Source of the DNA: Nostocoides sp. HKS02
GTDB lineage: Bacteria; Actinomycetota; Actinomycetes; Actinomycetales; Dermatophilaceae
NCBI RefSeq assembly: GCF_009707485.1
Contig: NZ_CP046121.1
Location: 2,170,001 to 2,234,000, forward strand
Direction of reading: 5' to 3'
Length of the DNA: 64,000 nt
The notes under the pieces are model-generated. The model made no database searches, was not told where the DNA came from, and saw only the letters and a program-made list of their open reading frames with translations. Below, one piece after another: positions 1 to 64,000 of this stretch. A program made the translations under genes and the position numbers. Position 1 is the first letter of the stretch. Every line of letters starts with the position of its first letter.

Positions 1-3
1 GCT

Positions 4-46
4 CTCGGTATGCCGCGTGCGCGCGGGGCGCACGCGGCATACCGAG
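4..46 (-). terminator. Hairpin downstream of rpsG, built from an inverted GTATGCCG pair
   Basis: Two 18-base arms (4-21, CTCGGTATGCCGCGTGCG, and 29-46, its exact reverse complement) flank a 7-base loop. The hairpin starts 7 bases after the rpsG stop codon on the minus strand, the place of a terminator or processing stem-loop, but there is no U tract. The arms contain the octamer that is enriched across this window, and the core GGTATGCCGCGTG recurs in the rpoB-rpoC gap and in one arm of the rplK-rplA hairpin. Confidence 0.75.
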
Positions 47-52
47 GCGCTG

Positions 53-523
53 TTACCAGCGGTAGTGCGCGAAGGCCTTGTTGGACTCGGCCATCTTGTG
101 GGTGTCCTCGCGACGCTTCACCGCGGCACCGAGGCCGTTGGAGGCGTCGAGGATCTCGTTCATGAGGCGCTCGGTCATGGTCTTCTCACGACGCTGACGC
201 GAGTAGCCGACCATCCAGCGCAGGGCCAGCGTGGTCGCGCGGTTGGGCTTGACCTCGATCGGCACCTGGTAGGTCGCGCCACCGACACGGCGGGACTTGA
301 CCTCGAGGGTGGGGCGGATGTTGTCCAGGGCACGCTTGAGCGTGGCCACGGGGTCGGTGCCGGTCTTCTCCTTGACGCCGTCGAGGGCGCCGTAGACGAT
401 CGTCTCGGCGATGGACTTCTTGCCATCGAGGAGGATCTTGTTGACCAGCTGGGTGACCAGCGGGGAGTTGTGAACCGGGTCGACGACGAGGGGGCGCTTC
501 GGCGCGGGTCCCTTGCGAGGCAT
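53..523 (-). CDS. rpsG: 30S ribosomal protein S7
   Basis: S7 is a primary 16S rRNA-binding protein that nucleates assembly of the 30S head and lies near the decoding centre. The 156-residue product starts [16 protein letters not shown] and ends AHYRW, the usual length and ends of bacterial S7. The ATG at 523 overlaps the last base of the rpsL stop codon (TAATG), so the two genes are translationally coupled, as is usual for the str operon. A strong hairpin follows the stop codon. In most genomes fusA comes next; it would lie beyond the left edge. Confidence 0.97.
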
Positions 524-1201: not shown

Positions 1202-1345
1202 ATCGGTTCGGCCTTCGCAGACGTAGTCATCCTTCACAACAACGCTGCCCCGTCGGGTATGCCGCCACCTGCCTTCCGGTCGATCGGGCCACGGGGGCTC
1301 GATGACCGTCCCCGTGCCGAGGACACGATGCAGGGGGACGGCTGA

Positions 1346-1377: not shown

Positions 1378-1409
1378 TCGGGTCATGCTGTGCGTCGGAC
1401 GTCAGTGCG

Positions 1410-5350: not shown

Positions 5351-5387
5351 GAGGTATGCCGCGTGGCCGGGCCACGCGGCATACCTC
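5351..5387 (-). repeat. rpoB-rpoC intercistronic hairpin with inverted GTATGCCG pair
   Basis: Arms of 18 bases (5351-5368, GAGGTATGCCGCGTGGCC, and 5370-5387, its exact reverse complement) surround a single central base, so the RNA would fold with a small GC loop. It lies between the rpoB stop (5394) and the rpoC start (5288). The core GGTATGCCGCGTG equals that of the hairpin after rpsG. A stem here could attenuate or process the rpoBC transcript; that role is inferred. Confidence 0.8.
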
Positions 5388-9966: not shown

Positions 9967-10583
9967 GGTTCTCCACCTTCCACGCCTCGCCGACCAGGCG
10001 CAGCTGCAGCCGCATCCGGTAGGTCTTGGTCTCCCCCGTTGGGCACGGCAGTGTTCTTCGTCGGCGCGACCACGCCGACCAGCACGACCGCGGAGTCCCG
10101 GTCGCCCGAGACCAGCGCCGCCTCGGTGCGACCCACGGTCGACACGGTCTGGTTGGTGACCAGGACCTTCTTGAGGTCCGCGACCGAGGTCGTGTAGCTC
10201 TTCAGGAAGTCGCCGGTGGCTCCGGCCCTGACGCGGGCGATGTCCTCGTCGACCTTGGTGTAGTCCACCGTGACGAAGTTGATCGCGAGCTGCTTGGCGG
10301 CGGCCAGGGCCGCCGAGTTGGCCTGCTCGGTCTGCCGCGCGGCATACCACTCCCGGCCGCGGGTGGCACCCAGGGCGAGGGAAGCCACGAGGGCGAGCGC
10401 GACCAGCACCCACAGCAGCCTCGGGGTGATCCGTAGGGCGACCGTGGGGCGCCCCGACCCCGATGGGGCTGGTGGGGCCGGTGGGTTCTGGGGGGACTCT
10501 GCGGCATCGGTAGCCACGGGGGTATGCGCCATGCCTTCCTGTGCCTTCACCGCCCGCCCGGCGTGGGTGGTGGTCGTGCTCAT
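9950..10583 (-). CDS. Mce-associated membrane protein (first), apparent frameshift
   Basis: The start is ATG at 10583, overlapping the upstream stop as ATGA, with GGAGG seven to eight bases upstream. There is one transmembrane segment (LLWVLVALALVASLALGAT) and a Mas-type NTF2-like domain. The frame shifts at a run of five C (10033-10037, plus strand). Removing one base restores VPNGETKTYRMRLQLRLVGE and then [12 protein letters not shown], followed by a stop at 9950, which is the expected family C-terminus and gives about 210 residues. As written, translation would run on to 9963 with an unrelated tail. A sequencing error is more likely than a real mutation, given the similar shifts nearby. 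Confidence 0.75.
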
Positions 10584-13113: not shown

Positions 13114-14351
13114 TGGGCCACCTTCAGCAATCCGCCCAAGGTCGGATCCGCGCCGCGCATCTGCACGGTCGTGGTGCCGTCGGGCTGGGTCGAGGACGCG
13201 TCGCCCTGGGGCACCGCGGAGAGCAGGTTGACGGGCAGCTTCACGCCGCCGCCCTGGAGCTGGCCCAGGAGGTCGGTGACCGGCTTGAGCGCACCGTCGA
13301 CGGTCTTGCACAGGGACGACGGCTGCCCGCTGGCAACGATGAGGTTGCACAGCATGGTCTTGGTCTGGAGGTTCTCGTTGACGTTCGACCGGGTGTCGAG
13401 CGTGCCCGTCTTGGGGTTGTACGCGTTCTGCAGGTTGCTCAGCGCGACCGGGGCGTTGGTCAGCGCCTCGGCGAGCGCGTCGCGCTGCTTGGCGACGGTG
13501 CCGGTGACGCTGGCGAGCTGGTGCAGGTTGGTCGTCAGCCCAGCGCGGTTGTCGTGGACGAAGGACGAGACCTCGCTGAGCGCGATCGCCAGGTTCTTCA
13601 GCGCCGCGGCCAGGTCCCCGCGCTCACCGTCGAGCTGGACCGAGACGTTGGCCAGGTCGGAGTTGAGGCGACGGACCTGCGTGTCGTTGGTCGCGAGCAT
13701 GCTCGTGAAGACCTGGAGGTTCTTGACCGTGCCGAACAAGTCGTTGCGGCCGCCCGAGAGGGTCTGCAGGGCGAGCGACAGGTTGTGGTTGGTGTCGTGG
13801 AGGTTCTGGCCCTGGCCCGCGAGGTTCTTCGCGCCCGTGTGGAGCAGGTCCTGGAAGGCACCGTTCTTGTTGGCTCCGGTCGGACCCAGCGCGACGAGGA
13901 GCTGGTCGAGGCTCTGCGAGATCCGGTCCAGCTCGACCGGGACCGCCGTGTGGTCGAGCCCGATCCGGGCACCCGACTTCATCACCGGTCCCGCGGTGTA
14001 TGCCGGGAGCAGCTGGATGTAGCGGTCGCTCACCAGCGAGGGAGCCACCACGGCCGCCTTGGCGTCGGCCGGCACGCGGTACTTCGAGTCGTACTCGAAC
14101 TTCACCTCGACCCGGTCGCCCATCGGGGTGACCGAGCTGACGGTGCCGACATGGACGCCGAGGATCCGGACGTCGGAGCCGGGATAGAGCCCGACCGCGC
14201 GGGTGAACTCACCGGTGACCTGGATCGTCTCGTGGCGCGGCCAGAACGCATAGGCGCCCGCGACCAGCGCGACGACGACCAGGGCTGCGACGAGCTTCGG
14301 GATCAGCCCGAGGCGCGGCATCCGGGGCAGGTTGGGAAGGCGGGCCATCAT
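13110..14351 (-). CDS. Mce family protein, fourth (MceD-like)
   Basis: 413 residues with an N-terminal anchor (LIPKLVAALVVVALVAGAYA), a Mce domain (GSDVRILGVHVGTVSSV, PSLVSDRYIQL) and a long helical domain. It lies in the fourth position of the operon. The frame remains open upstream only because a frameshift in the preceding mce gene merges the two. The real start is ATG at 14351, overlapping the upstream stop as ATGA, which fits the four-base overlap pattern of the whole operon. Confidence 0.87.
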   Translation of the reverse strand: MMARLPNLPRMPRLGLIPKLVAALVVVALVAGAYAFWPRHETIQVTGEFTRAVGLYPGSDVRILGVHVGTVSSVTPMGDRVEVKFEYDSKYRVPADAKAAVVAPSLVSDRYIQLLPAYTAGPVMKSGARIGLDHTAVPVELDRISQSLDQLLVALGPTGANKNGAFQDLLHTGAKNLAGQGQNLHDTNHNLSLALQTLSGGRNDLFGTVKNLQVFTSMLATNDTQVRRLNSDLANVSVQLDGERGDLAAALKNLAIALSEVSSFVHDNRAGLTTNLHQLASVTGTVAKQRDALAEALTNAPVALSNLQNAYNPKTGTLDTRSNVNENLQTKTMLCNLIVASGQPSSLCKTVDGALKPVTDLLGQLQGGGVKLPVNLLSAVPQGDASSTQPDGTTTVQMRGADPTLGGLLKVAQ

Positions 14352-16345: not shown

Positions 16346-17667
16346 TGCTGGCTCACCACCGTTCCACGCAGCATCGGCCCGGCGAGCAGGGTCGTGATCG
16401 CCGACGGGCGCGACGTGCCGTCGGTGGACAGCAGCGCGGCGACGAGTGCTTGCTCCTGCTCGGTGCCGGCGAGGCCGGCATCCGCCTGGGGTATGCCGAG
16501 CCCGGACTGCCCGGCGAACATCGACGGCAGGGCGCTGCCCGCGCCGGACGACGCGGCGTTGGTGCCGTCGTTGAAGTGGTTGGCCGGCCGCGGGTTCTGC
16601 TGGCTGCCGTAGTGGTTGGGCAGGCCGTAACAGGTCGGCCCTCGCGAGTCGCCCCAGCGCGGCTCCTCGCCCGGGTGGTAGCCGGGTCGCTGCGGCGAGG
16701 TCTCGATGGTCAGGTGGAACGTGTCGCCCCGCCACGCGTTGTCGATCCTCGGGATCCAGTTCGTCAGGGCAGCAGCCAGGCAGGGGTACTCCGGGGAGTA
16801 CTTCGCGAACACCGCCACCGTCGGGCGCTGCACCCGACCCACCTGGATGATCCGCTCACCATTGGCATCCAAGAAGTCCGCCGTCGTGTTCGCAAAACCC
16901 GCCGTCCCCGCCAAGAACCCCGCCAGCGCATCCTTACGCTGCACGATCGTCGTATTCGTCGTGATCAAGTTCGTCGCCGCCCGCACCAACGCCGGCGCCG
17001 CCACCGCATACGTCGACGCCAGATCCGCCAACCCCGAGATATCCGCCTGGATCACCGGCATCTTCGGGTTCAACGCCTTGAAATACGAGTCAACCAACAC
17101 CAGGTTCTGACCCAGCCGGGTCCCGCGACCATCCAACGCCGACGCCAACGCATTCAACGTCGCCGCCAGTTTCTCCGGCCGCACCGTGCGCAACAACGGC
17201 AACAGGTCCGCAAACACCTTCTCCAGCTCGATCGCCACCGACGTCCGATCCTGACCGATCGTCGCCCCCGCCACGATGTGCCCCACCCCAGCACGACCCG
17301 CCTCCGGCGACACCAGATCCACGAACCGCTCACCGAACAACGTCTTCGGCAACAACCGCGCCGTCACATCCGCCGGGATCAGGCCCACCATCTCCGGCTG
17401 CAGGGCGAGCTCGAGCCTGGCGCCGTTGCCGGTCGTCTGGATCGAGCGCACCTCACCGACGATCAACCCCCGCAGCTTGACGTCGGAGGAGGTCTGCAGC
17501 TGCGACCCGACGCGGTCGGTGAGCAGGTTGACCATCACGACATCGGTGAACCTCTTCTGGAACATCGCGACCGACAGCCCCAGGAGCAGCGCGACGACAG
17601 CGATGAACCCCACGCCATAGGCGTGGTTGCCGAACCGAGACATGAAGCCGGTACTTCCCTGTGCCAT
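16342..17667 (-). CDS. Mce family protein, first (MceA-like), mosaic codon usage
   Basis: 441 residues, first of the six substrate-chain proteins. It has an N-terminal anchor (GVGFIAVVALLLGLSVAMF), a Mce domain (SSDVKLRGLIVGEVRSI, KTLFGERFVDL) and a C-terminal region with GPTCYGLPN, typical of MceA proteins. The middle third (about 16830-17380) uses TTG, GAT, GCG, GGT and AAT codons, while both ends use the CTG, GAC and GCC codons normal for this genome. The protein stays in frame and family-like throughout. It follows the yrbE genes after three bases. Confidence 0.88.
   Translation of the reverse strand: MAQGSTGFMSRFGNHAYGVGFIAVVALLLGLSVAMFQKRFTDVVMVNLLTDRVGSQLQTSSDVKLRGLIVGEVRSIQTTGNGARLELALQPEMVGLIPADVTARLLPKTLFGERFVDLVSPEAGRAGVGHIVAGATIGQDRTSVAIELEKVFADLLPLLRTVRPEKLAATLNALASALDGRGTRLGQNLVLVDSYFKALNPKMPVIQADISGLADLASTYAVAAPALVRAATNLITTNTTIVQRKDALAGFLAGTAGFANTTADFLDANGERIIQVGRVQRPTVAVFAKYSPEYPCLAAALTNWIPRIDNAWRGDTFHLTIETSPQRPGYHPGEEPRWGDSRGPTCYGLPNHYGSQQNPRPANHFNDGTNAASSGAGSALPSMFAGQSGLGIPQADAGLAGTEQEQALVAALLSTDGTSRPSAITTLLAGPMLRGTVVSQQ
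16830..17380. other. Tract of foreign codon usage inside mceA
   Basis: On the coding strand about fourteen of some twenty leucines use TTG and most aspartates use GAT, with GCG, GGT, TAT, AAT and TTT also common. Flanking mceA sequence and neighbouring genes use almost only CTG/CTC, GAC, GCC, GGC, TAC, AAC and TTC. The edges are sharp. The reading frame and Mce domain are preserved, so this looks like homologous replacement of a piece of mceA by DNA from a relative with different third-position preferences. Confidence 0.75.
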
Positions 17668-18510: not shown

Positions 18511-19281
18511 TCAGATCTTCTGCGGGACGACTTGGAAGTACACGGCGCTGGCGACGAAGTTCACGACGAACAGGAACATGAAGGTGATGACCACACTCTG
18601 GTTCACGGCGTCGCCGACTCCCTTGGGGCCGCCTCCGGCGGTCAGGCCCTTGTATGCCGCGACGACCGCCGCGATGAAGCCGAAGATCAGGGCCTTGATC
18701 TCACTGGTCCACAGGTCGGCCAGCTGGGCCAGCGCCGTGAACGAGGCGATGTACGCGCCGGGCGTGCCGCCCTGGATGATCACGTTGAAGAAGTAGCCGC
18801 CGGCCACGCCCACGACGGACACCAGCCCGTTGAGCAGGACGGCGACCACCATGGCGGCGAGCACCCGCGGCACCACGAGGCGCTGGATCGGGCTGATGCC
18901 GAGCACCTCCATGGCGTCGATCTCCTCGCGGATCTTGCGCGAGCCCAGGTCGGCACAGATCGCCGAGCCACCGGCGCCCGCGATGAGCAGCGCGGTGACG
19001 ATCGGTGAGGCTTCGCGGATCACCGCCAGCACCGAGGCAGCACCGGTGAACGACTGGGCGCCGAGCTGACGGGTGAGGGTGCCGAGCTGGAGCGCGATGA
19101 CCGCGCCGAACGGGATGGACACCAGGGCCGTCGGCACGATGGTGACCGAGGCGATGAACCAGCACTGCTGGATGAACTCCTTGGTCTGGAACGGCCGACG
19201 GGGCATCGCGCGCATGGTGTCGATCACCATGGCGAACAGCGACCCACTCTGGCGCAGGGCTCCGACGGCAGGGTTCTTCAC
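18511..19281 (-). CDS. YrbE-type ABC permease, first (MlaE family)
   Basis: 256 residues, MlaE/YrbE family. It has several transmembrane helices and the coupling motif EIDAMEVLGISPIQRLVVPR, followed by AGGYFFN. GTG at 19281 overlaps the ATPase stop codon (GTGA), giving MKNPAVGALRQSGSLF; the longer open frame upstream is within the ATPase gene. The two YrbE proteins presumably form the heterodimeric membrane core that receives lipid from the Mce ring. Confidence 0.92.
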   Translation of the reverse strand: MKNPAVGALRQSGSLFAMVIDTMRAMPRRPFQTKEFIQQCWFIASVTIVPTALVSIPFGAVIALQLGTLTRQLGAQSFTGAASVLAVIREASPIVTALLIAGAGGSAICADLGSRKIREEIDAMEVLGISPIQRLVVPRVLAAMVVAVLLNGLVSVVGVAGGYFFNVIIQGGTPGAYIASFTALAQLADLWTSEIKALIFGFIAAVVAAYKGLTAGGGPKGVGDAVNQSVVITFMFLFVVNFVASAVYFQVVPQKI

Positions 19282-20390: not shown

Positions 20391-20405
20391 TATGCCGTCG
20401 GCATA
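20391..20405. repeat. Close inverted TATGCCG pair upstream of the mce operon
   Basis: TATGCCG (20391-20397) and CGGCATA (20399-20405) face each other across one base. It lies between the rplL terminator hairpin and the mceG start, in the presumed promoter region of the mce operon. It is a short member of the inverted-octamer family. No clear -35/-10 pair was found in 20271-20410. Confidence 0.6.
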
Positions 20406-20410
20406 CGCCA

Positions 20411-20863: not shown

Positions 20864-20951
20864 GATGGGCGTCCTTTCGTTTCGTACTTCGTGTATGCCG
20901 TGAGTGGCGGTTTGGTGGGTGAGCTGACCTCGCCGGGTTGCCCAGGAGGGA

Positions 20952-35835: not shown

Positions 35836-41366
<5,531 letters not shown>

Positions 41367-43645: not shown

Positions 43646-44706
43646 CCCCCGTGCCCGCTGCCCACCGAACCGCGCTGGTGACCGGGGCCACCGGCTACAT
43701 CGGCGGAGCGCTCGTGCCCGGGCTGCTCGAGGCGGGCTGGTCCGTTCGCGTGCTCACCCGCGACCGCTCGCGCCTCGAGGGCCAATCGTGGCTGCAGGAC
43801 GTCGAGGTCGCCGAGGGCGACGCGAGCCGGGCCGCGGACGTGCGCAATGCCCTGGCCGGCGTCGACGTGGCCTACTACCTGCTCCACTCCATGGACGGTC
43901 GAGGCGACTTCGTCGCCCGCGACCGTGAGCTCGCGACGACCTTCGCCGGTGCCGCGGCGAAGGAGGGGGTGCACCGGCTCGTCTACCTCAGCGGGCTGCA
44001 CCCACCCGGCGACCTGTCCGAGCACCTCGCGTCCCGGGTCGAGGTGGGCGACATCTTCCTGGCTGGCAGCGTTCCGACCGCGGTGCTGCAGGCCGGGGTG
44101 GTGCTCGGTGACGGCTCGGCGTCGTTCGACATGCTGCGCCACCTCACCGAGCGACTGCCCGCCATGGTTGCCCCGCGGTGGCTCCGCAACCGCATCCAGC
44201 CCATCGCGATCGCCGACGTCGTGCACTACCTCGTCGCCGCTGCGGACCTGCCGGCCGACGTCCACCGCAGCTTCGACATCGGCGGACCCGAGGTGATGAC
44301 GTACGCGCAGATGATGCAGCGGTACGCCTCGGTCGTCGGCCTGCGCCCGCGCTGGATCGTCACGGTGCCGGTGCTCACTCCGGGCCTGGCGGGCCTGTGG
44401 GTGGGACTGGTCACCCCCGTGTCCGCGGGCATCGCGCGCCCGCTGGTGAACAGCCTCATCCACGAGGCCGTATGCCGCGAGGAGGACATCCTCACGGCGA
44501 CCGGGCCCCCGCCCGGTGGACGCACCGCATTCGACGACGCGGTACGGGCGGCGGTCCGCTCGGTCGACCCACAGGGCTGGGGCCGGTCCGCGGCGCGGCG
44601 AGGCCGGCTGGCAGCAGCCGCTGCGCTGGCCGGTGCGCTGGTCACCTCGTCAGCGGCCCACCGCAGGCGCCGGTCAGCCCGAGCTCGGACAGGCCTGCGC
44701 CGATGA
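43642..44706 (+). CDS. NAD(P)-binding SDR-type epimerase/reductase (first paralogue)
   Basis: 354 residues, atypical SDR of the YbjT/NmrA kind. The N-terminal Rossmann motif is TGATGYIGGALVPGLLEAGW, followed by YYLLHSMDG, VYLSGLHPPGDLSEHLASR and IAIADVVHYLV. The last 40 residues are Arg/Ala-rich. It shares layout and several motifs with the gene at 45210-46265 on the opposite strand. GTG at 43642 overlaps the CPBP stop codon. Confidence 0.8.
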   Translation: MTPVPAAHRTALVTGATGYIGGALVPGLLEAGWSVRVLTRDRSRLEGQSWLQDVEVAEGDASRAADVRNALAGVDVAYYLLHSMDGRGDFVARDRELATTFAGAAAKEGVHRLVYLSGLHPPGDLSEHLASRVEVGDIFLAGSVPTAVLQAGVVLGDGSASFDMLRHLTERLPAMVAPRWLRNRIQPIAIADVVHYLVAAADLPADVHRSFDIGGPEVMTYAQMMQRYASVVGLRPRWIVTVPVLTPGLAGLWVGLVTPVSAGIARPLVNSLIHEAVCREEDILTATGPPPGGRTAFDDAVRAAVRSVDPQGWGRSAARRGRLAAAAALAGALVTSSAAHRRRRSARARTGLRR

Positions 44707-45209: not shown

Positions 45210-46265
45210 TCAGCGCGGTGGTGGGCCGAGCAGCAGGTCCTGCCAGCCGCCCCGACGATGGTGGACCGGACGTCCGTCGTGACGGGACACCTGACCGCCC
45301 GCCCAGCCCGCGTCCGACCGCAGCGGCCCGAGGGGGTCCCGGTCCTCGTCCGGGACGGAGTCACCCGGTCGGGCCAGCGCGCGGTCGATGGCCTCGGCGA
45401 CCGGCAGCATCGGGTGGCGCTCGGGCATGAGGTCGCGCAGGAAGTCCTGGCCCCCGCAGACCATGTCGTGGTGCAGGCTCTCGACCAGGGACTGGACGGT
45501 CGACGCCGGCGCGCTGGTCAGGACGGGCGCCAGCCGCGAGACCACCCCGGTCGGGACCAGCGGCACGCTGACCTGCAGACGTTGGAGACCGGCGAGCCGC
45601 GCGTAGAGGCGCAGCAGCGCGGCATACGTCACGCGGTCGCCGCTGCCCAGGTCGTAGGCGCGGCTGTGCGCCGGAGCGGACAGCGCCCCCACCAGGGCGG
45701 TGACGACGTCGTTCACGGCGACCGGCTCGATCCTGCTGCGCATCCACGTCGGCAGGGCCTGCACCGGCAGCCGCTCGCTCAGCTGGCGCATGATCTCGAA
45801 CGACGTCGACCCGCTGCCCACGACCATGGCCGCCCGCAGCGCCAGCGTCGGCACTCCGGAGTCGGTGAGGATCTGCTCGACCTCGAGTCGCGAGCGCAGG
45901 TGTGCCGAGAGGTCGCCCTCGGGGACAGCCGGGACGAGGCCACCGAGGTAGACGATGCGCTGCGCGCCGGCCCGCACCGACGCGTGTGCCGCGTGGTAGG
46001 CGCCCTCGCGGTCGCGCGTCGCGAAGTCGTCGCCGCCCAACCCGTGGATGAGGTAGTAGACGGCGTCCGCGCCCGCGGCGGCCCGACGCGCAGAGTCTCG
46101 GTCGAGGACCTGCATCGTCACGGCCTCGACCCGGTCGGCCCACCAGAAGCGCGAGGCGCTCGTGACGTCCGTGAACGTAGCGACCACGTCGTGACCCTCG
46201 GCGAGCAGAGCCGGGACCAGGCGGCTCCCGATGTAGCCGCCCCCGCCCATCACGACCACCCGCAC
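45210..46265 (-). CDS. NAD(P)-binding SDR-type epimerase/reductase (second paralogue)
   Basis: 351 residues from GTG 46265, chosen because GGAGGGAGG lies just upstream; the frame opens six codons earlier. Rossmann motif GGGGYIGSRLVPALLAEGHD, then YYLIHGLGGDDFATRDRE, VYLGGLVPAVPEGDLSAHLR and VAVNDVVTALVGAL. Line for line it resembles the SDR at 43642, including the HL.SRLEVE and S.F..MR.L.ERLP patterns, so the two are paralogues in convergent orientation around the SRPBCC gene. Substrate unknown. Confidence 0.78.
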   Translation of the reverse strand: MRVVVMGGGGYIGSRLVPALLAEGHDVVATFTDVTSASRFWWADRVEAVTMQVLDRDSARRAAAGADAVYYLIHGLGGDDFATRDREGAYHAAHASVRAGAQRIVYLGGLVPAVPEGDLSAHLRSRLEVEQILTDSGVPTLALRAAMVVGSGSTSFEIMRQLSERLPVQALPTWMRSRIEPVAVNDVVTALVGALSAPAHSRAYDLGSGDRVTYAALLRLYARLAGLQRLQVSVPLVPTGVVSRLAPVLTSAPASTVQSLVESLHHDMVCGGQDFLRDLMPERHPMLPVAEAIDRALARPGDSVPDEDRDPLGPLRSDAGWAGGQVSRHDGRPVHHRRGGWQDLLLGPPPR

Positions 46266-46711: not shown

Positions 46712-47845
46712 GTGCTGGCAGCGTGGATCGGGTGCATCGCGGGTGTCGTCGTGGTGACCGGCACGCTCGCGAGCGTGATCGGCACACTGGTCGTGCCGCG
46801 GCGCGTCGACTCCCGGATCTCCCGGCTGTGCGAGCACCTCATGGACGGCCTGTTCCGCGCGGTGGTCCCTCGTGGCGCGAAGTACGAGGTCCGCGACCGG
46901 GTGCTCGCCTGGCAGGCTCCCATCACCCTGCTGGTCCGGCTGCTGGTCTGGCTGACCCTCCTCGCCCTGGGGTTCGGGCTGGTCCTGCTGCCTGCGGTGC
47001 CGGGATCACCCGGCCGGGCGTTCTCCGACGCCGGGTCGTCGCTGTTCACCCTCGGGTATGCCGCGCCGACCGGTCGCGCCAGCGCGGCGCTCGAGTACCT
47101 GGCCGCGTTCACCGGGCTCGTCGTGGTCGGCCTGCAGGTCGGCTACCTCCCGACCCTGTATGCCGCGTTCAACCGGCGCGAGACGGCGGTGACCCTGCTC
47201 ACCGCACGGGCCGGCACTCCGGCCTGGGGCCCGGAGATCCTGGCGCGGACCAGGTGGGGCATCTTCGACGGTGACGCCCGGCCGGTGCTGGACGAGCTCT
47301 TCAGCTCGTGGGAGGGCTGGGCGGCGGAGGTCGCCGAGTCGCACACGACCTACTTCACGCTCGCGCGGCTGCGCTCGCCGCAGCCCTTCTCGGACTGGCT
47401 CACCTCGCTGGTCGCCGTGCTCGATGCGGCCGCGCTGCACCTCTCACTGACGCCGTCGGCCGAACCGAAGATCACGGCACGCCTGGCGCTGCGCATGGGC
47501 TTCGAGGCGCTCGACCGCATCGCCCGCGCGATGCGCCTGCCCGTACCACCAGGACCCGACCCCGACGCACCGATCTCCGTGTCGTACGACCAGTTCTGCG
47601 CGGCCACGGCGATGCTCCGACAGCTGGACTACCCGATCGAGGTGACGGACGAGGTCGCCTGGCCGAACTTCCGCGGCTGGCGGGTCAACTACGACGTCAC
47701 CGCGCTACTCCTCGCCCGCGAGCTCGACGCCACTCCGGCCATGTGGACCGGTCCACGACGCTGGCCGTCGGAGCCCATCCCGCCTCGCCGTCCGGCTCTG
47801 CGCAAGGCCAGCGCCCCGCCGCGCCGCGAGCCGCCGCGCAGCTAG
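46712..47845 (+). CDS. Membrane protein with potassium-channel-like pore segment
   Basis: 377 residues from GTG 46712. An N-terminal transmembrane helix (GCIAGVVVVTGTLASVIGTL) is followed by another (LLVRLLVWLTLLALGFGLVL), a pore-like stretch SSLFTLGYAAPTG resembling the T-x-G-Y-G filter of K+ channels, a further helix (LAAFTGLVVVGLQVGYLPTL) and a soluble domain of about 200 residues. The filter is degenerate, so ion selectivity is uncertain. Convergent with the YCII gene. Confidence 0.65.
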   Translation: MLAAWIGCIAGVVVVTGTLASVIGTLVVPRRVDSRISRLCEHLMDGLFRAVVPRGAKYEVRDRVLAWQAPITLLVRLLVWLTLLALGFGLVLLPAVPGSPGRAFSDAGSSLFTLGYAAPTGRASAALEYLAAFTGLVVVGLQVGYLPTLYAAFNRRETAVTLLTARAGTPAWGPEILARTRWGIFDGDARPVLDELFSSWEGWAAEVAESHTTYFTLARLRSPQPFSDWLTSLVAVLDAAALHLSLTPSAEPKITARLALRMGFEALDRIARAMRLPVPPGPDPDAPISVSYDQFCAATAMLRQLDYPIEVTDEVAWPNFRGWRVNYDVTALLLARELDATPAMWTGPRRWPSEPIPPRRPALRKASAPPRREPPRS

Positions 47846-48231: not shown

Positions 48232-48336
48232 CACACATCTCCTCAGTTCCCGGCGGTCCCGATGACCACCTCCAGCCACCCCACGAACGGTATGCCGCGG
48301 ATCCGACAACCTTCACAGAAAAGCAGGTGGCAGAGG

Positions 48337-48936
48337 TCAGGCGGTGCGGATGCCGGCCAGCACGATGCTCACGACCCGCTTCTGCTGGTCCGGGTCGAGC
48401 TCGCCCATCATCGTGCAGCCCCCGACGAGGCGGAGCAGGTCGGAGGGTTCGACATCGGTGCGCGCGACGCCTGCACCCTGGGCGTTGCGGAGTACCGCGC
48501 CCGCCGCGTCGTTGACCGCCTGGCGGGAGTGGGTGAGCAGCTCGGAGTCGCGGCCGACGGCGTCGACCAGCTCCTGGAACAGCGCGCGCTTGGTCGCCGC
48601 GTAGTCGAGCAGGACCCACACCCACTGCTCGAGGGCAGCCCACGGCTCCTGCGACTCGACGAGCCGCACGGTCTGCTGCTCGAGCGCGTCGACATCCTCG
48701 CGGTAGACGGCTTCGAGCAGGGACAGCCGGGTGGGAAAGCGGCGGTAGAGCGTGCCGATGCCCACGCCCGCCCGGCGCGCGATCTCCTCGAGCGAGGACT
48801 CGGTGCCGGACTCGCGCAGCACCTCGCGGGCAGCAAGGACCAGGCGCTCGTGGTTCCGCTGCGCGTCAGCGCGCATCGGCCGCTCCGCGCTGAGCTGACC
48901 GGCGGCAGGTGTCGGGACCACCCGGCATACCTCCAT
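48337..48936 (-). CDS. TetR family transcriptional regulator
   Basis: About 199 residues from ATG 48936; ATG at 48876 is an alternative 20 residues in. The helix-turn-helix is SLEEIARRAGVGIGTLYRRF at about residues 46-65, followed by a ligand-binding domain. It is divergent from an MFS efflux gene, with an 8-base inverted repeat over the efflux promoter, so it is probably the local repressor that releases DNA when a pump substrate binds. Confidence 0.85.
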   Translation of the reverse strand: MEVCRVVPTPAAGQLSAERPMRADAQRNHERLVLAAREVLRESGTESSLEEIARRAGVGIGTLYRRFPTRLSLLEAVYREDVDALEQQTVRLVESQEPWAALEQWVWVLLDYAATKRALFQELVDAVGRDSELLTHSRQAVNDAAGAVLRNAQGAGVARTDVEPSDLLRLVGGCTMMGELDPDQQKRVVSIVLAGIRTA

Positions 48937-49034: not shown

Positions 49035-50533
49035 GTGTCTGCACAGACTCTCGCGGCTCCAGCGCCCAGCCCCACGCCGTCCCCGATCCAGCGACCCGAC
49101 GGACCCCGTCGGCGGGTCTCTCCCGCCGTCGTCCTCGGCGTCATCCTCACCGCCCAGCTCATGGTCGTGCTCGACGCGACCATCGTGAACGTCGCCCTGC
49201 CCCGCATGCAGACGGCGCTCCACTTCACCCCCACGGGCCTGTCGTGGGTGCTCAACGCCTACACCCTCGCCTTCGGCGGACTGCTCCTGTTCGGCGCACG
49301 GGCCGGTGACCTGTTCGGGCGACGCCGGGTCTTCCTCGCCGGGATGGCGCTTGTTCGCGGCGGCGTCCTTCGTCGGCGGCCTGGCCACCACCTCGACCTG
49401 GCTGGTCGCGTCCCGCGCGGCTCAGGGTGTCGGCGCGGCCCTCGCCGCACCGGCGGTGCTCGCACTGCTCATGTCGACGTTCACCGAGGTGCGCGAGCGC
49501 ACTCGCGCCCTGGGCCTGTTCACCGGAGTCTCCATCGGGGGCGCCGCCATCGGCCTCATCGCCGGCGGCCTGCTCACGCAGTGGTTCTCGTGGCGCTGGG
49601 TGATGTTCGTCAACGTCCCGATCGGCCTCGCGGTGATCGCCGCCGCGCTCCTGGTCGTCCCGGAGACCCCGCGAGCGACCGGACGGATCGACGTGGCCGG
49701 CGCCCTGACCTCGACCCTCGGCATGACCGCCCTCGTCTACGGGTTCGTCCGCGCTGCCGAGGCCGGGTGGAGCAACGCCGAGACGATCACGTCGTTCGTC
49801 GCCGCGGTGCTGCTGCTCGCGGCGTTCGTCGTCGTCGAACGACGCGCGGCACACCCGATCGTGCCCCTCGAGCTTGTTCGCCAACCCCACCCGTGCGGGG
49901 TCGTATGCCGGGCGGCTGCTTCTCGTGGCCGGGATCATGGGCACGTTCTTCTTCACCACCCTGTTCCTCCAGAACGTGCTCCACTACAGCCCGCTGCAGA
50001 CCGGCCTGGGGTTCCTGCCCCTGACCGCGGCGCTGTTCCTCGCCTCACAGCTGAGCGCTCGCCGGTTCGTCGAGCAGTTCGGACCGCGCCGCGTGATGGT
50101 GGTCGGGACGCTGCTGTCGACGACCTCGCTGGCGCTGCTCAGCCGGATGTCCGAGACCAGCAGCTACTGGTACATCCTCGTGCCCCTCGTCCTGCTCGGC
50201 CTCGGCAACGGCACCGCGTTCGTGCCGCTGACCGGCGCCTCGCTCCACGAGGTCGAACCACAGCACGCCGGAGCCGCGTCCGGCCTGGTCAACGTCACGC
50301 AGCAGGTCGGTGGGTCGTTGGGGCTGGCCCTGCTCGTGACGGTGTTCGGCACGGCCAGCCGGCACGCCGCGTCCGAGCCGACCCACGGCCGCTCGGTCGT
50401 CGAGCAGTCCCAGCACGTCTTCGTCGCCGGGGCGTCGACCGCCCTGACGGTCGCTGCCGGGTTGTTGCTGCTCACCGTCCTCGTCGTGTCCCAGCTCCAC
50501 CGGACACCACGGCCCGCGCGCGCCTCGCACTAG
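49035..50533 (+). CDS. MFS drug efflux transporter (DHA2/EmrB type), two apparent frameshifts
   Basis: Proton-driven multidrug exporter of the 14-helix type, 498 residues after correction. The N-terminal helix has VLDATIVNVALPRMQTAL and motif A-like GARAGDLFGRRRVFL; GGLLTQWFSWRWVMFVNVP follows. The frame breaks at about 49351 and again at about 49874. Both places read CTTGTTCGC where LF is expected, and deleting one T restores GMALFAAASFVGG and LELFANPTRAGSYAG. GTG at 49035, with AAGGAG upstream. As written the gene would be dead; two identical-context insertions suggest an artefact. Confidence 0.82.
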
Positions 50534-51933: not shown

Positions 51934-53763
51934 GTGGGACCGCGACTCCGACCGGCGCACTGGACGTTGCTGCTCGCGACCGTGCTGGTCGAGGGGGCCG
52001 CGATCGGCCTGTCGTGGGGACGCGAACCCACGTGGGACACGGTCGTCTACGCGGCATACGCCCTCGCCAACGTCGTCGCTGGCGTGCTGATCCTGGCACG
52101 CCACCCACGACACCTCATCGGGTGGCTGCTCATCACCACGGGAGTCCTGCAGGCTGTCGTCTCGGACCTCGGCCAGGGCTGGGCCCTCGTCGGCACCTCG
52201 CGAGGATGGCCCGGCTCTGCCATTGCCGACCTCGCGGCCGCCTCCACCTGGGCCGTCGGAGGCGGGCTCATGGCGGCGACCTTCGTGCTCTTTCCCGACG
52301 GGCGGCTGCCCCGGAGCGGTCGCGTCTGGCCATGGGTGCTCCCTGTCGCGGGCATCGGATCGCTGGTGCTGTTGGCCGGCTGGGCTACCGGCGACCAGGT
52401 CGACAGCCTGCTCGTCTCTGGTCGCAACCCACTGCGTTCTGCCACCGTCCCGACCGTCCTCCTCTACTGGGTCGGGTTCGTCGCCGTGACGACCGCAATG
52501 CTGCTCGGAGTCCTGGCGATGGTGCTGAGGATGCGTCGAGCCGACGGCGTCGAGCGCCAGCAGCTCAAGTGGATGGTCTTCGCGGTCGGAGTCGTGGTGG
52601 TCGTCCTGCTCCCGACCGCGCCGTTCTACACGAGCTCCGTGGCGTTCCGGATCGCCGATGCCCTGGTGCTCACTGCGCTGCCGCTCGCTGCGCTGGCCGC
52701 GATCTGGCGATACCGGCTCTACGACATCGAGCTCATCGTCAGTCGGACCGTCCTCTACCTGGCGGTGACCATGGTCCTCGGAGGACTGTTCGCTGCCTTG
52801 GTCGTCGGGCTCGGCGTCGTCTTCGGTGGCGGCTCGACGATCGCCACCGCCCTGGCCACGCTGCTCGTCGCGCTGGCGTTCGGGCCGCTGCGCCGCTGGA
52901 TGCAGCGATACCTCGATCGCTGGTTCGACCGTGGTCGGTACAACGCCATGGCCGACGTGGCTGGCTTCATGGCCGATCTGCGAGAAGGTCGGAGCGAGCC
53001 GGAGCGGGTGCACGAGGTGATCGCCGCCGCCGCGAGCCGGATGCGAAGTCCCGAGGCCCAGGCCGCGATCGTCCCGGCGCTCGAGAAGGAGGCCTCGCTG
53101 GCGATCGAAATGGTGAGCCTCCGTGCCGAGCTGCGTCACCAGCTGGAGGAGGTGCGGGACTCCCGGTTGCGGATCGTCGAAGCCGCTGAAGCCGAACGAC
53201 GCAGGATCGAGCGCGACCTCCACGACAGCGCCCAGCAGCGCATGGTCTCCATCGGGCTGGCCCTGAGGCATGTCCAGCATGAGCTGGGCGACTCGGCGAC
53301 AGGGGTGACGCGCACCTTGGAGGCGGCCGTGCGCGAGGTCACCGACACGATCGAGGAGCTGCGCGACATCGCCCACGGCATACGGCCTGGGGTCCTCGAC
53401 GACGGCCTGGCCCCGGCCCTTCGGGACCTGGCGCACCGCGCTCAGCTGCCGGTCTCGATCGAGGTACCCGAGGTGAGGTACTCGAAGGACGTCGAGACGG
53501 CGGCGTACTTCATCGCGTGTGAAGGCGTCACCAACGCGCTCAAACACGCTGGCGCCTCCCAGCTCGCCCTCGAGGTTCGGCAGCTCGGTCGTCGGCTCGT
53601 GGTCCGGGTGAGCGACGACGGCGTGGGTGGAGCGACGATGCGCGGTGGTGGCGGACTCGTGGGCGTCAGCGACCGGGTCGCCGCGCAGGGCGGGCAGTTC
53701 AGGATCGAGTCAAAGCCAGGACAGGGCACCACGCTCATCGCGGAGCTGTCATGCGGGTCGTGA
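51934..53763 (+). CDS. Membrane sensor histidine kinase (NarL/HisKA_3 type)
   Basis: About 609 residues from GTG 51934; ATG at 51829 would add 35 residues that look non-coding. The N-terminal half has about seven transmembrane helices. A coiled linker leads to the HisKA_3 H-box ERRRIERDLHDSAQQR with phospho-acceptor His, then the HATPase N box ACEGVTNALKHA and G box DDGVGGATMRGGGGLVG. The signal is unknown. The stop overlaps the response regulator start by 13 bases. Confidence 0.88.
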   Translation: MGPRLRPAHWTLLLATVLVEGAAIGLSWGREPTWDTVVYAAYALANVVAGVLILARHPRHLIGWLLITTGVLQAVVSDLGQGWALVGTSRGWPGSAIADLAAASTWAVGGGLMAATFVLFPDGRLPRSGRVWPWVLPVAGIGSLVLLAGWATGDQVDSLLVSGRNPLRSATVPTVLLYWVGFVAVTTAMLLGVLAMVLRMRRADGVERQQLKWMVFAVGVVVVVLLPTAPFYTSSVAFRIADALVLTALPLAALAAIWRYRLYDIELIVSRTVLYLAVTMVLGGLFAALVVGLGVVFGGGSTIATALATLLVALAFGPLRRWMQRYLDRWFDRGRYNAMADVAGFMADLREGRSEPERVHEVIAAAASRMRSPEAQAAIVPALEKEASLAIEMVSLRAELRHQLEEVRDSRLRIVEAAEAERRRIERDLHDSAQQRMVSIGLALRHVQHELGDSATGVTRTLEAAVREVTDTIEELRDIAHGIRPGVLDDGLAPALRDLAHRAQLPVSIEVPEVRYSKDVETAAYFIACEGVTNALKHAGASQLALEVRQLGRRLVVRVSDDGVGGATMRGGGGLVGVSDRVAAQGGQFRIESKPGQGTTLIAELSCGS

Positions 53764-54398
53764 TCGTCGAGGACCAGGTCCTGCTCCGCGAGGGACTCGC
53801 GCGGCTGTTCGTGGACGGCGGCCATCAGGTCGTCGCGACCAGAGGCGATGCCGAGGGGCTGCTGCCGCTGGCCGCGGAGGTAGCGCCGGATCTGGTGGTG
53901 CTCGACGTGCGTATGCCGCCCACGCACACTGACGAAGGCATCAGGGCGGCCGCTGAGCTCAAGGCCGCGATGCCCCACCTCGGTGTGCTGGTCCTCTCGC
54001 AGCACGTCGAGACGGTGCACTCCGTCGGGCTCATCGAGTACCCCGCGTTCGGCTACCTGCTCAAGGACCGCGTGCTGGAGGTCGGCGACTTCCTGGCGAC
54101 GTGCGAACGAGTGGCCGCTGGCGGTTCGGCGCTCGACCCGAAGGTCGTCGCGAACCTGGTCGGCGGTCGGCGACGTGGGAGCGTCGACATCTTGAGCGAG
54201 CGCGAGGCCGAGGTCCTCGGGCTCATGGCCGAGGGGCTGACCAACACCGGGATCGCCCAACGGCTGGTCATCAGCGACCGCACGGTCGAGTCCCACGTGC
54301 GACGACTCTTCGCCAAGCTCGACATCCCCGAATCCGCCAACGAGCACCGCCGGGTGCTGGCCGTGCTGGCTCACCTGCGCGGCACCAGGTCAGCGTGA
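53751..54398 (+). CDS. LuxR/NarL-type response regulator
   Basis: 215 residues. The receiver domain has acidic residues VIVEDQ, phospho-acceptor Asp in LVVLDVRMPP and Lys in GYLLKDRV. The C-terminal GerE HTH has LSEREAEVLGLMAEGLTNTG and SDRTVESHVRRLFAKL. It is the partner of the preceding kinase. Nothing recognisable lies between its stop and the palindrome at 54569. Confidence 0.93.
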   Translation: MRVVIVEDQVLLREGLARLFVDGGHQVVATRGDAEGLLPLAAEVAPDLVVLDVRMPPTHTDEGIRAAAELKAAMPHLGVLVLSQHVETVHSVGLIEYPAFGYLLKDRVLEVGDFLATCERVAAGGSALDPKVVANLVGGRRRGSVDILSEREAEVLGLMAEGLTNTGIAQRLVISDRTVESHVRRLFAKLDIPESANEHRRVLAVLAHLRGTRSA

Positions 54399-54568
54399 CG
54401 GTGCGGCGCCGAGTACCCCCGCGACGTATGCCGCCCGCTCGCCTTCCGCTTGGCGGCTAGGCGCGAGCTTCGGCGCGATTTCCCCACAGACACTCGGCGC
54501 CAGACGGCGTCGTTCGCTACCCGGGCCCCTAGGGGCCGTGCTCTTTGGCAGACGGCACTCCGAACAGC

Positions 54569-56277: not shown

Positions 56278-56313
56278 CCTCAGGACGGCATACCGCCTCA
56301 GGTCGGCATACCG
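56278..56313. repeat. Tandem direct repeat containing two CGGCATAC octamers
   Basis: CCTCAGGACGGCATACCG (56278-56295) is followed at once by a copy with one change (A to T, 56296-56313). Unlike the other paired sites the octamers here point the same way. The second copy overlaps the last codons of the kinase gene (Gly-Met-Pro-Thr-stop). It lies in the gap between the convergent yajQ and kinase genes. Confidence 0.85.
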
Positions 56314-57419: not shown

Positions 57420-59900
<2,481 letters not shown>

Positions 59901-60948: not shown

Positions 60949-61839
60949 TCAGCGCTGGCGGAACCCGTAGGCCTGCGCCTCGAGCCGGGCGATCCGCTCG
61001 GTCATCGGCGGGTGCGTCGAGAACAACCGCGACACGTCCTGCGGCCGGAACGGGTTAGCGATCATCATGTGACTGGAGTTCTGGATGGCCGGGGTGGGCT
61101 GCAGGGGGGCCTGGGCGACCCCCACCTCGAGCTTGCGCAGGGCCGACGCGAGGGCCAGCGGGTCGCCGGTGAGCTTGGCGCCGTCCTCGTCCGCGTCGAA
61201 CTCGCGCGTGCGGCTGATCGCCATCTGGATGAACATGGCCGCGAACGGCGCCAGCAGGGCCATGGCCAGCATCGCGAACGGGTTGGGTCGGTCCTCGTCA
61301 TTGCCGCCCCCACCGCCGAACATGCTCGCGAACATCATCATCTGCGCCACGGAGGTGATGACGCCAGCGACCGCCGCGGCGACCGACCCGGTGAGGATGT
61401 CGCGGTTGTAGACGTGCATGAGCTCGTGGCCGAGCACGCCACGCAGCTCGCGCTCGTCGAGCAGCCCGAGGATGCCTTCGGTGCAGCAGACCGCGGCGTG
61501 CTCGGGGTTGCGACCCGTGGCGAACGCGTTCGGGGCTGCGGTCGGGCTGACGTAGAGCGTGGGCATCGGCTTGCCCGCGGCGGTCGACAGCTCGCGGACG
61601 ATGCGGTACATCGCCGGGGCCTGGGCCTCGCTCACGGGATACGCGTGCATCGCGCGGATGGCCAGCTTGTCGCTGTTCCAGTAGCCGTACGCCGTGGTGC
61701 CGAGGCCGATGAGCGCGAAGATCCAGATGAAGGAGCCGTTGCGGGTGTACGCGGCGATACCACCGCCGATGACCAGGAGCAGGGCGAAGATCGCACCCAG
61801 GAGGGCAGCGGTCTTGAGCCCGTTCAGATGGTTGTGCAT
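60949..61839 (-). CDS. htpX: Membrane zinc metalloprotease HtpX
   Basis: 296 residues, M48 family. Two N-terminal transmembrane helices (LLGAIFALLLVIGGGIAAYT, FIWIFALIGLGTTAYGY), the zinc site VLGHELMHVYNRD and the third ligand Glu in SRTREFDADEDGAKLTGDP, and a glycine-rich loop. It degrades misfolded membrane proteins. It lies downstream of nuoN on the same strand after 37 bases. Confidence 0.95.
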   Translation of the reverse strand: MHNHLNGLKTAALLGAIFALLLVIGGGIAAYTRNGSFIWIFALIGLGTTAYGYWNSDKLAIRAMHAYPVSEAQAPAMYRIVRELSTAAGKPMPTLYVSPTAAPNAFATGRNPEHAAVCCTEGILGLLDERELRGVLGHELMHVYNRDILTGSVAAAVAGVITSVAQMMMFASMFGGGGGNDEDRPNPFAMLAMALLAPFAAMFIQMAISRTREFDADEDGAKLTGDPLALASALRKLEVGVAQAPLQPTPAIQNSSHMMIANPFRPQDVSRLFSTHPPMTERIARLEAQAYGFRQR

Positions 61840-61876
61840 GTCGGTCTCAACGTTCCCTCAGGTTCGGTCGTTCCCG

Positions 61877-63409
61877 TCAGCCGAGCAGGCCCAGGAGCAG
61901 CTGCGGCATCAGGCTGGTGGCCACGAGCGCCGCCCCGCTGAGCACGAGCGCGGCCAGCGCCGGGCGCGGGAGCGGGCCGACCCACGACGTGGCGGGCGCC
62001 TCCTGCGGGTCGCGCAGCAGCACACTGAACCAGCGCAGGTAGACCGCGATGCCGAGCACCGCGTTCGCCACGGCGACGAGGGCCAGCAGCCACTGTCCCT
62101 GGCCCACCACCGGGCGCAGCGCCAGCACCTTGGCGAGCAGGCCGATCACGCCCGGCGGCAGCCCGGCGAGTGAGAGCAGGGCGAGACCGAGCGCACCCCC
62201 AAGTACGGGGTGAGTGCGCAACAGCCCGGTGTATGCCGCGAGCGTCCGACGCTGCGCCGGCGCCTCGGCCGTGACCGGTGCTGAGGCGACGACGTGCACC
62301 ACCGTGAACGCGACGAGCGTGGCGACGAGGTAGGCCAACAGGTAACCGCCGGAGGCCGGGGCCGACGCCGCGGTCATCGCCGAGAGGGGAAGGACCACCC
62401 ACCCCGCCTGGGCGACGGTCGACCAGGCGAGCAGCCGGACTGGGTCGTCCTGCACGAGGGCGATGACGTTCCCCACGGTCATCGACACCGCCGCCAGCAC
62501 CCCGACGGCGACCAGGACCGGCCCGCGGGCGTCGGCCAACGGCCGCATGACGACGAGCAGGGCGGCCAGGGCAGCGACCTTGGAGGTGCCCGCGAGGAAG
62601 GCCGCCACGGGGTAGGAGGCACCGGCATACGCCTGGGGTGTCCAGGCGTGGAAGGGGGCGAGGGAGAGCTTGAAGGCGAGTCCCGCCACGAGGAAGAGCA
62701 CGCCCAACAGCAGGACCGCGCGGCGGTGGGGATCGGCAAGCGCGGTGTCGGCGCTCCCCGCCGCGAACACCGCCTGACCGGTGGCGGTGAGCCACAGGGC
62801 GGCGCCCAACGCCACCATCGCGAACGACACCACCGATGTCGTCAGCAGCGCCAGGGCGCCCCGCCCCGACGCCCGGGTGCCCCTCAGCGTGACCAGGGCG
62901 ATGGCGGGCAGCGTCGCCAGCTCGAGACACACCAGCCACGAGCCGAGGTCGTGGGCCGCGGCCACCCCGGCGGCACCCGCCGTCGCGGCCAGGACCAGCG
63001 AGACGAGCACGGCCGGGCCACCACGCAGGTCCTGACGACCCGCACCGCTGGGCCACATCAGCAGCAGCACCACGAGCGCCGACGCCATGGCGCCGGCCTG
63101 GAAGGCACTCGCCAGCGGCCCCGCTTCGTAGAGGCAGGCACCAGCGGGGGCGGGCAGGCACAGCGTGCGCAGCGGGGCGGTGGCAGCGTGCAGGGCGCCG
63201 GGCAGTGCCAGGGCGATCCCCGCGGCCAGCGCCACGACCCCGACGATGCCGTGCAGCCGCGCTTGAGCGGCCTGGCGGGCGCCGTTGACGTCGTCGGCCC
63301 GGTCGGGCAGCACGGCATCGGCGAGCAGGACGAGCACTGCCCCGAGAGCCGGCGCCAGCACCGGGGCGAGGACGAGCCAGTCGATCGAGACCGACGAGGT
63401 CGGGGTCAC
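61877..63409 (-). CDS. nuoN: NADH-quinone oxidoreductase subunit N
   Basis: 510 residues, about 14 transmembrane helices, antiporter-like subunit of complex I. Proton-path motifs include LAFKLSLAPFHAWTPQAYAG and SYPVAAFLAGTSKVAALAAL, with conserved charged residues (Lys in FKLSLAPFH, Glu in LVCLELATLP). GTG at 63409 overlaps the stop of the upstream subunit (GTGA). It is the usual last gene of the nuo operon. Confidence 0.92.
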   Translation of the reverse strand: MTPTSSVSIDWLVLAPVLAPALGAVLVLLADAVLPDRADDVNGARQAAQARLHGIVGVVALAAGIALALPGALHAATAPLRTLCLPAPAGACLYEAGPLASAFQAGAMASALVVLLLMWPSGAGRQDLRGGPAVLVSLVLAATAGAAGVAAAHDLGSWLVCLELATLPAIALVTLRGTRASGRGALALLTTSVVSFAMVALGAALWLTATGQAVFAAGSADTALADPHRRAVLLLGVLFLVAGLAFKLSLAPFHAWTPQAYAGASYPVAAFLAGTSKVAALAALLVVMRPLADARGPVLVAVGVLAAVSMTVGNVIALVQDDPVRLLAWSTVAQAGWVVLPLSAMTAASAPASGGYLLAYLVATLVAFTVVHVVASAPVTAEAPAQRRTLAAYTGLLRTHPVLGGALGLALLSLAGLPPGVIGLLAKVLALRPVVGQGQWLLALVAVANAVLGIAVYLRWFSVLLRDPQEAPATSWVGPLPRPALAALVLSGAALVATSLMPQLLLGLLG

Positions 63410-64000
63410 GGGCCGGCTCCGATGATCGTCGACACCGTGTCACGGGTCAGGGCGAGCAGCGGACCGGGTGCGACCCCCAGCGCGAGGGTCGCCGCGACCA
63501 GGGCCCAGGCGACCTGCCACTCGTGCCCCCGGCTGTCCTCGATGAACGGCTGGGCGCGGTCCCCGGCCCACACGACGCGCGCCACGCGCAGGCTGTAGGC
63601 AGCGGCCAGTACGGTCCCCGTCGCAGCCACCACGGCCACCGTGGCGAACACCGCGTGGGGCCGGTCTGCGGCCGGTGACCACGCGGCATACACGCTGAGG
63701 AACTCGCCCCAGAACCCCGCGAGCCCGGGCAGTCCGAGCGAGGCTGCCAAGCCGACGATCAACGCGAAGCCGAGGCGAGGCGCCACCTCGCGCACCGCGG
63801 CGCGGGCAGTCTCGAGGTCGGCGCTGCCCCAACGCTCCTTGAGCCCGCCGACCACGACGAACAGCAGAGCGGAGATCACGCCGTGGGCGATGTTCGCGAA
63901 CAACGCAGCCTGGAGCCCGGTGCGGGTGCCACTGGCCAGCCCGATCGCCACGAAGCCCATGTGGGCCACCGAGGAGTAGGCGACCAGGCGCTTGAGGTCG
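63406..64000 (-). CDS. nuoM: NADH-quinone oxidoreductase subunit M, 3' part
   Basis: The gene runs off the right edge. The visible 198 codons begin inside DLKRLVAYSSVAHMGFVAIG, the conserved NuoM segment, and continue through HGVISALLFVVVGGLKERWG and LPGLAGFWGEFLSVYAAW to the stop at 63406. This is about the last 40 percent of the protein. The full nuo operon is presumably to the right. Confidence 0.92.
   Translation of the reverse strand, partial: DLKRLVAYSSVAHMGFVAIGLASGTRTGLQAALFANIAHGVISALLFVVVGGLKERWGSADLETARAAVREVAPRLGFALIVGLAASLGLPGLAGFWGEFLSVYAAWSPAADRPHAVFATVAVVAATGTVLAAAYSLRVARVVWAGDRAQPFIEDSRGHEWQVAWALVAATLALGVAPGPLLALTRDTVSTIIGAGP

Follow-up and report, generated by a model that had tools for sequence, protein, structure and literature searches.

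The octamer GTATGCCG is strongly over-represented in the window analysed here, a stretch of 64,000 nucleotides from the chromosome of Nostocoides sp. HKS02 (contig NZ_CP046121.1), an actinobacterium taken below as a Phycicoccus in the GTDB sense. The word is in excess across the whole genome, occurs equally on both strands, excludes further copies on its own strand only, carries a weaker extension on its 3' side (YGNNG), and gives way to one-base dialects in several relatives. Together with this extension, GTATGCCG is tentatively read as a Chi-like, genome-wide directional signal for DNA-end processing, with AdnAB as the candidate reader.

Exact matching on both strands located 50 copies in the 64-kb window, 25 per strand. 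The third-order Markov expectation is 2.42, which makes the excess about 20-fold and gives GTATGCCG the highest z-score of all window octamers; 100 dinucleotide shuffles of the window held 0.91 ± 0.96 copies, with a maximum of 4. The preliminary description of this DNA had proposed an excess of this size, with TATGCCG nearly always extending to the octamer and with balanced orientation. All of this is borne out, as 50 of the 52 TATGCCG occurrences sit within GTATGCCG and the positions it listed are correct within a few bases (18652 for 18647, 25296 for 25290, 10340 for 10345). The 3.48-Mb genome contains 2537 copies (1273 forward, 1264 reverse; 0.73 per kb), against 159 (94/65) for the word read backwards, which served as a genome-wide control. 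When the chromosome was sampled as 20 stretches of 20 kb, each stretch held 11 to 21 copies, with the exception of one that held a single copy. The strands were near-equal in the sampled stretches, with 144 forward and 139 reverse copies in all, so that replichore polarity is absent. Strand totals gave a mean z-squared of 0.55 in 23 genomes of the Dermatophilaceae (P 0.04), which we take to be the family of this genome, along with Knoellia, Janibacter, Intrasporangium, Terrabacter and Ornithinimicrobium. The value was 1.17 in 10 Microbacteriaceae-type genomes, and totals more even than binomial are only suggestive.

The excess is real, genome-wide and independent of codon use. In genes called by a simple procedure of our own, shuffling of synonymous codons left 14.0 sense and 4.9 antisense copies, compared with 161 and 107 observed (19 versus 268 coding copies in total). 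Modelling of codon use had been named beforehand as the analysis that could make the excess vanish, and the excess persists. The copies had also been placed in all three reading frames; all three do occur, but unevenly, with 142 of 161 sense copies in the frame G-TAT-GCC-G (Tyr-Ala) and 75 of 107 antisense copies in the frame CG-GCA-TAC (Ala-Tyr). More than half of the TAT codons in the sampled genes (142/273) lie inside GTATGCCG. Of 332 sampled copies in this genome, 269 (81%) are genic and 63 are non-coding.

The spacing of these copies differs sharply between same-strand and opposite-strand pairs. Spacing was determined in 444 kb of the genome, with the same 332 copies and with one island stretch (L012) left out. 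Adjacent copies switch orientation in 212 of 312 cases. Same-strand pairs less than 500 bp apart number 12 where 57 are expected, a scarcity that persists to 1.5 kb, whereas opposite-strand pairs at the same distance, converging or diverging, number 64 against an expected 62. Between 60 and 1500 bp, 74 same-strand pairs were found against 159.6 ± 12.0 expected (0.46), and 169 opposite-strand pairs against 176.2 ± 12.4 (0.96). The same range gave 169 versus 257.7 same-strand and 298 versus 277.1 opposite-strand pairs in the congener G002, and 17 versus 38.7 and 38 versus 40.0 in the window region of four other Phycicoccus (the G008 stretch left out). Twenty named family loci, each with at least 6 copies, gave 93 versus 119.9 same-strand and 153 versus 130.1 opposite-strand pairs, the latter about 2 s.d. 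above expectation. Two Microbacterium genomes display a weaker and shorter exclusion, with 119 same-strand pairs versus 157.9 at 60-500 bp and 463 versus 502.2 at 60-1500 bp, opposite-strand pairs being at expectation; control words in Microbacterium showed no same-strand exclusion. One-mismatch words in the same DNA showed no comparable effect (same-strand ratios 0.74-1.24), and random draws from the pooled exact and one-mismatch positions did not reproduce it. The coefficient of variation of the gaps on each strand (0.59/0.63 versus 0.92) indicates that each strand is more regular than Poisson. Each strand is thus spaced as though the other strand did not exist.

The exclusion ratio in this genome is 0.41 within genes and 0.49 between genes; because the exclusion crosses gene borders, it is a property of the DNA and not of mRNA. 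The corresponding ratios in G002 are 0.43 and 0.79, within-gene distances being shorter. An orientation-blind reader is unlikely, since it should affect all close pairs and only same-strand pairs are affected. The pattern therefore points towards a reader that deals with each strand on its own, and suggests that GTATGCCG is read directionally by some factor, perhaps in the course of DNA repair or uptake. Convergent pairs closer than 60 bp show no real excess (5 versus 3.7 expected in this genome, 10 versus 5.9 in G002), and a terminator or hairpin role was rejected on these counts.

Same-strand-only exclusion constitutes a new spacing law, shown neither by E. coli Chi nor by the neisserial DNA uptake sequence (DUS). 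The DUS control comprised 22 viral-contig loci with 159 sites (40 loci reduced to 25 non-redundant and 22 dense ones), which were picked by hairpin pattern and are partly proviral. It gave 62 same-strand pairs versus 65.3 expected (0.95), 57 opposite-strand pairs versus 81.4 (0.70), and 28 hairpin pairs versus 1.8. A small control with the uptake signal sequence (USS; 34 loci reduced to 16 and then 6, 40 sites) gave 11 versus 13.2 and 11 versus 14.3. Chi in 400 kb of E. coli (108 sites) showed no exclusion, with 29 same-strand pairs versus 23.8. As GTATGCCG follows neither pattern, Chi and DUS were rejected as models of its spacing. As a purely computational measure, the pair statistic resolved by strand tells directional words from orientation-blind ones, and it is applicable to other repeated words.

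The word is widespread in the family and appears in altered form in relatives. GTATGCCG is enriched in all 11 searched Phycicoccus genomes, the lowest having 332/293 copies against 21/22 for the control. One genome was searched for each of 25 other genera in the family; enrichment is strong in 12 of these, mild in 3 and absent in 10. None of the 22 genomes searched from 19 families elsewhere in the order is enriched. One-base dialects replace it in part: GGATGCCG in G011 (28 versus 5.3 expected in 40 kb) and G026 (32 versus 4.3), GTACGCCG in G033 (34 versus 5.6), and GTATGCGG in G030 (11 versus 1.0). In 21 kb of a metagenome-assembled genome (L065), 13 copies of GAATGCCG stand beside 8 of GTATGCCG. 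No comparably strong word was seen in 40-64 kb of G012, G018, G019 and G024. A search of 80 named loci revealed GGATGCCG at densities reaching 32 copies in 20 kb in Microbacterium, Leifsonia and some other Microbacteriaceae. Four such genomes contain 4009 to 4967 copies (1979/2119, 2480/2487, 2136/2151 and 2019/1990 on the two strands). When 119 genomes were drawn evenly across the order, the GGATGCCG excess proved to be concentrated in one family (f19, probably the Microbacteriaceae), where 6 of 7 genomes carry 774 to 2422 copies per strand. The literature search, which left most subscription papers and preprints outside its reach, found no report of GTATGCCG in these bacteria. Its only match was to the reverse complement, in the accessible text of an unrelated Ralstonia genotyping study, and no match was found for the dialect words.

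The 3' flank adds to the specificity. Two Phycicoccus genomes supplied 340 sense, 246 antisense and 137 non-coding copies for comparison. In all three classes alike, position +9 is preferentially C or T, position +10 is G at frequencies of 0.64, 0.70 and 0.65, respectively, and position +13 is G at 0.52, 0.61 and 0.57, all above one-mismatch control words. The YG extension that had been noticed in the window is therefore confirmed, and reaches further, to the G at +13. The +10 preference recurs with the Microbacterium word (0.51 versus 0.33), with GTACGCCG in G033 (0.69 versus 0.22) and with GTATGCGG in G030 (0.67, 12 copies). It was not found with GGATGCCG in G011 and G026 (0.35 versus 0.39, 71 copies), nor with GGATGCCG as a null word inside GTATGCCG genomes. 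The recurring flanking preference supports the idea that most of these words share a single family of readers, though it is no proof.

Individual copies are held more firmly than their surroundings, yet are turning over. In alignments with five congeners, the exact word is kept in 57 of 139 cases (41%) and neighbouring octamers in 1102 of 4856 (23%), and GTATGCCG ranks 73rd in conservation among 320 frequent octamers. One copy in the AdnAB region (column 4866) recurs in six Phycicoccus and in another genus. Such turnover is expected if what matters is how densely each strand carries the word and not where the copies lie. The one island examined (C1:1960001-2000000; L330, L012) has only 3 copies in 40 kb; its GC content falls to 0.63, and it carries mobile-type genes with HipA, DUF3987 and Lsr2 domains, which is consistent with recent acquisition.

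If GTATGCCG acts as a Chi-like signal, a motor would load at a DNA end, whether at a double-strand break or on incoming linear DNA, and track along one strand. On meeting the word in its active orientation, it would switch from degrading or unwinding to RecA-dependent repair. As breaks are two-ended and may fall anywhere, both strands would need the word about equally often. One copy per 1-2 kb would be enough for each direction, so that extra same-strand copies would bring little and be lost, and opposite-strand copies would be irrelevant to the motor. This reading is favoured on three grounds: the word requires no opposite-strand partner, it has extra specificity on its 3' side, and it occurs in a genome with AdnAB but no RecC. 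Like Chi (GCTGGTGG), it is an octamer with a genome-wide excess and strand-dependent behaviour that may, to judge by the one island examined, be scarce in foreign DNA, and its strand-specific spacing agrees, indirectly, with the action of Chi in one orientation. Chi, too, has extra specificity on its 3' side, the side from which RecBCD reaches it.

AdnAB is the main break-resecting machine of actinobacteria. It is intact in this genome, as two adjacent open reading frames with UvrD and PDDEXK domains, and the G002 pair matches both chains of the solved structures 6ppj and 6ppr, which are presumably AdnAB complexes. No RecBCD-like machine other than AdnAB was found here; RecBCD status was judged by RecC, and AddAB was not searched for. 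RecC was not found here, and RecBCD was not found in 20 of the 23 strongly enriched Dermatophilaceae. RecBCD was consequently rejected as the reader, and its absence from this genome makes AdnAB the candidate. A depletion of RecC in enriched genomes was apparent in a first family set (3 of 23 strongly enriched versus 7 of 13 others) and was dropped when it did not recur in a second (6 of 16 enriched versus 3 of 6 without the word); of the 16 enriched genomes, G067 and G070 are indistinguishable by their matches from G008 and G031 in the first set, and one, G082, shows weak enrichment. In a tree of AdnAB built by a quick method, the word is scattered over deep branches. According to the accessible text of PMC4824097 and PMC13309787, the response of AdnAB to Chi is unknown. 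If the Chi-like reading is true, GTATGCCG would supply a concrete sequence, an active-side extension and dialects for the question of how AdnAB is controlled. A bolder and more doubtful version holds that the word is a strand-specific ruler and the first directional recombination word of AdnAB-class helicase-nucleases, or of another actinobacterial motor, old enough to have formed dialects in both the Dermatophilaceae and the Microbacteriaceae, and with a spacing law of its own.

Several observations weigh against a Chi-like role. E. coli Chi lacks same-strand exclusion in the control above. Chi is also polarised to the leading strand, as stated in the accessible part of PMC8022716, and GTATGCCG shows no such polarity. 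Its density and roughly 20-fold sharpness are nearer to those of uptake sequences than to those of the sparser E. coli Chi. Practically all relatives have AdnAB, whether they carry the word or lack it (57 of 58 have PDDEXK_1). None of 389 conserved AdnA columns differs in both GGATGCCG genomes, and of 429 conserved AdnB columns only 3 track the dialect, none convincingly. Exclusion was not detected in the dialect genomes G011, G026 and G033 (50 versus 56.4; 113 sites, with low power).

The main rival is an uptake word for natural transformation whose reader sees a single strand. A protein at the cell surface or in the channel would pick the word-bearing strand or let it through, so that the two strands of a fragment are judged separately, and copies would spread because fragments that bear the word are taken up and recombined. 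This is judged unlikely, yet it is kept close because density, sharpness and dialects resemble those of uptake words. As in DUS and USS, there are 0.7-1.3 copies per kb on equal strands, a sharp excess of at least about 20-fold, dialects one base apart and a patchy distribution, and a strand-specific import step would yield same-strand exclusion. The machinery is also at hand: comEA and comEC stand together in 76 of 81 loci, the other 5 of which end just upstream, and 61 of 62 genomes have TadE. In Micrococcus luteus, transformation runs through Tad pili together with comEA/EC, according to the part of PMC4322843 available. Identical machinery is, however, found in relatives without the word, so that competence genes, which the preliminary description had recommended checking, are present but lend uptake no specific support. 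The likeness to DUS and USS drawn there likewise holds for density, sharpness and dialects and fails for spacing and hairpin pairs: DUS shows an opposite-strand deficit and a hairpin excess and lacks same-strand exclusion, whereas GTATGCCG shows strand-specific exclusion, lacks a real hairpin excess, is mostly genic and belongs to a high-GC Gram-positive host. As far as the accessible text of PMC1939737 states, the orientation of the site makes no difference to uptake in H. influenzae. A further point against uptake is that the comEC of this assembly (C1:1517076-1517881; L329) is broken across two reading frames, whereas that of congeners is open. An M1-peptidase paralogue (C1:453275-455781) is also in pieces, and both cases may reflect either assembly indels or real gene decay. 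Should GTATGCCG be an uptake word instead, a Gram-positive phylum would have an uptake sequence, and the literature searched showed none there.

A third and rather improbable explanation is a putative mark on one strand, methylated or nicked, that would allow repair or defence systems to distinguish strands or self DNA within 1-2 kb. Such a mark would yield exclusion and balance per strand, and mismatch repair in these bacteria presumably relies on NucS, found in 62 of 62 genomes; to our knowledge, strand discrimination in NucS-type mismatch repair is not understood. NucS does not track the word. Indeed, the presence of ComEC, ComEA, TadE or NucS does not separate genomes with the word from those without it, and no surveyed AdnAB, competence or repair gene tracks its presence or dialect.

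It is very improbable that the word is a double-stranded site bound by an architectural or nucleoid protein, or a pointer resembling the FtsK-orienting polar sequences (KOPS), even though its copies are regularly spaced along the chromosome. A protein blind to orientation would be expected to keep all copies apart and not those on one strand alone, and KOPS and architecture-imparting sequences, which are likewise asymmetric octamers spread over the chromosome, are polarised by replichore. The sampled stretches round the chromosome show no such polarity, KOPS was rejected, and the earlier argument from balanced orientation against KOPS holds. Of the proposal of an uptake, recombination or nucleoid-protein site, what stands is a codon-independent, strand-balanced recognition word, and strand-specific exclusion speaks against the nucleoid-protein part. 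HIP1 (GCGATCGC) of cyanobacteria is similarly an abundant octamer of unsettled function, but it is palindromic, unlike the asymmetric GTATGCCG, and is linked to methyltransferases in the accessible part of PMC4390886. A compositional or codon-usage artefact, with the GC-rich make-up and otherwise nothing in its favour, has practically no chance and was rejected on the Markov expectation, the synonymous shuffle, the non-coding copies and the retention in congeners.

Table 1. Copies of GTATGCCG in the window, with coordinates counted from its first base; the remarks give close pairs and retention in aligned Phycicoccus.
Position	Strand	Remark
8..15	+	
35..42	-	
1257..1264	+	
5354..5361	+	inverted pair with 5377
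5377..5384	-	inverted pair with 5354
10340..10347	-	
13998..14005	+	
16491..16498	+	
18652..18659	+	
20399..20406	-	
20893..20900	+	
23550..23557	+	inverted pair with 23564
23564..23571	-	inverted pair with 23550
25296..25303	+	
25584..25591	-	
28202..28209	-	kept in 4/4
28911..28918	-	
30330..30337	-	
31007..31014	+	
32106..32113	-	
32535..32542	-	
33417..33424	+	
33673..33680	-	
35031..35038	+	
36743..36750	+	
38201..38208	-	
39819..39826	+	
40535..40542	-	
41924..41931	+	
42190..42197	-	
43414..43421	+	
44470..44477	+	
45620..45627	-	
47056..47063	+	same-strand pair with 47158
47158..47165	+	same-strand pair with 47056
48290..48297	+	
48923..48930	-	
49903..49910	+	
52052..52059	-	
53376..53383	-	
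53911..53918	+	
54426..54433	+	
56286..56293	-	same-strand pair with 56304
56304..56311	-	same-strand pair with 56286
58692..58699	+	
58859..58866	-	kept in 4/5
59465..59472	-	
62231..62238	+	
62623..62630	-	
63684..63691	-	kept in 4/5

Other over-represented words were encountered in relatives. Runs of eight or more C/G are in excess in Janibacter melonis (L066; 30 versus 2.1) and in G034 (L032-L033; 24 versus 1.5), and two palindromes stand out, GGACGTCC in G020 (L026-L027; 20 versus 2.2) and GCGTACGC in Hamadaea tsunoensis (L131; 30 versus 6.3). In Microbacterium sp. ACRRU (L111), CATTGGGG and overlapping words (7 versus 0.1) resemble a local repeat. CGGACGCC in Propioniciclava sinopodophylli (L121; 33 versus 6.7 in 21 kb) is possibly a further word of this kind, in the Propionibacteriaceae. 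Finally, GGAGCCGG occurs 64 times versus 15 expected in 71 kb of G016 (L023, L203-L205), a family member without GTATGCCG, and may be either an unrelated word or a very distant dialect.

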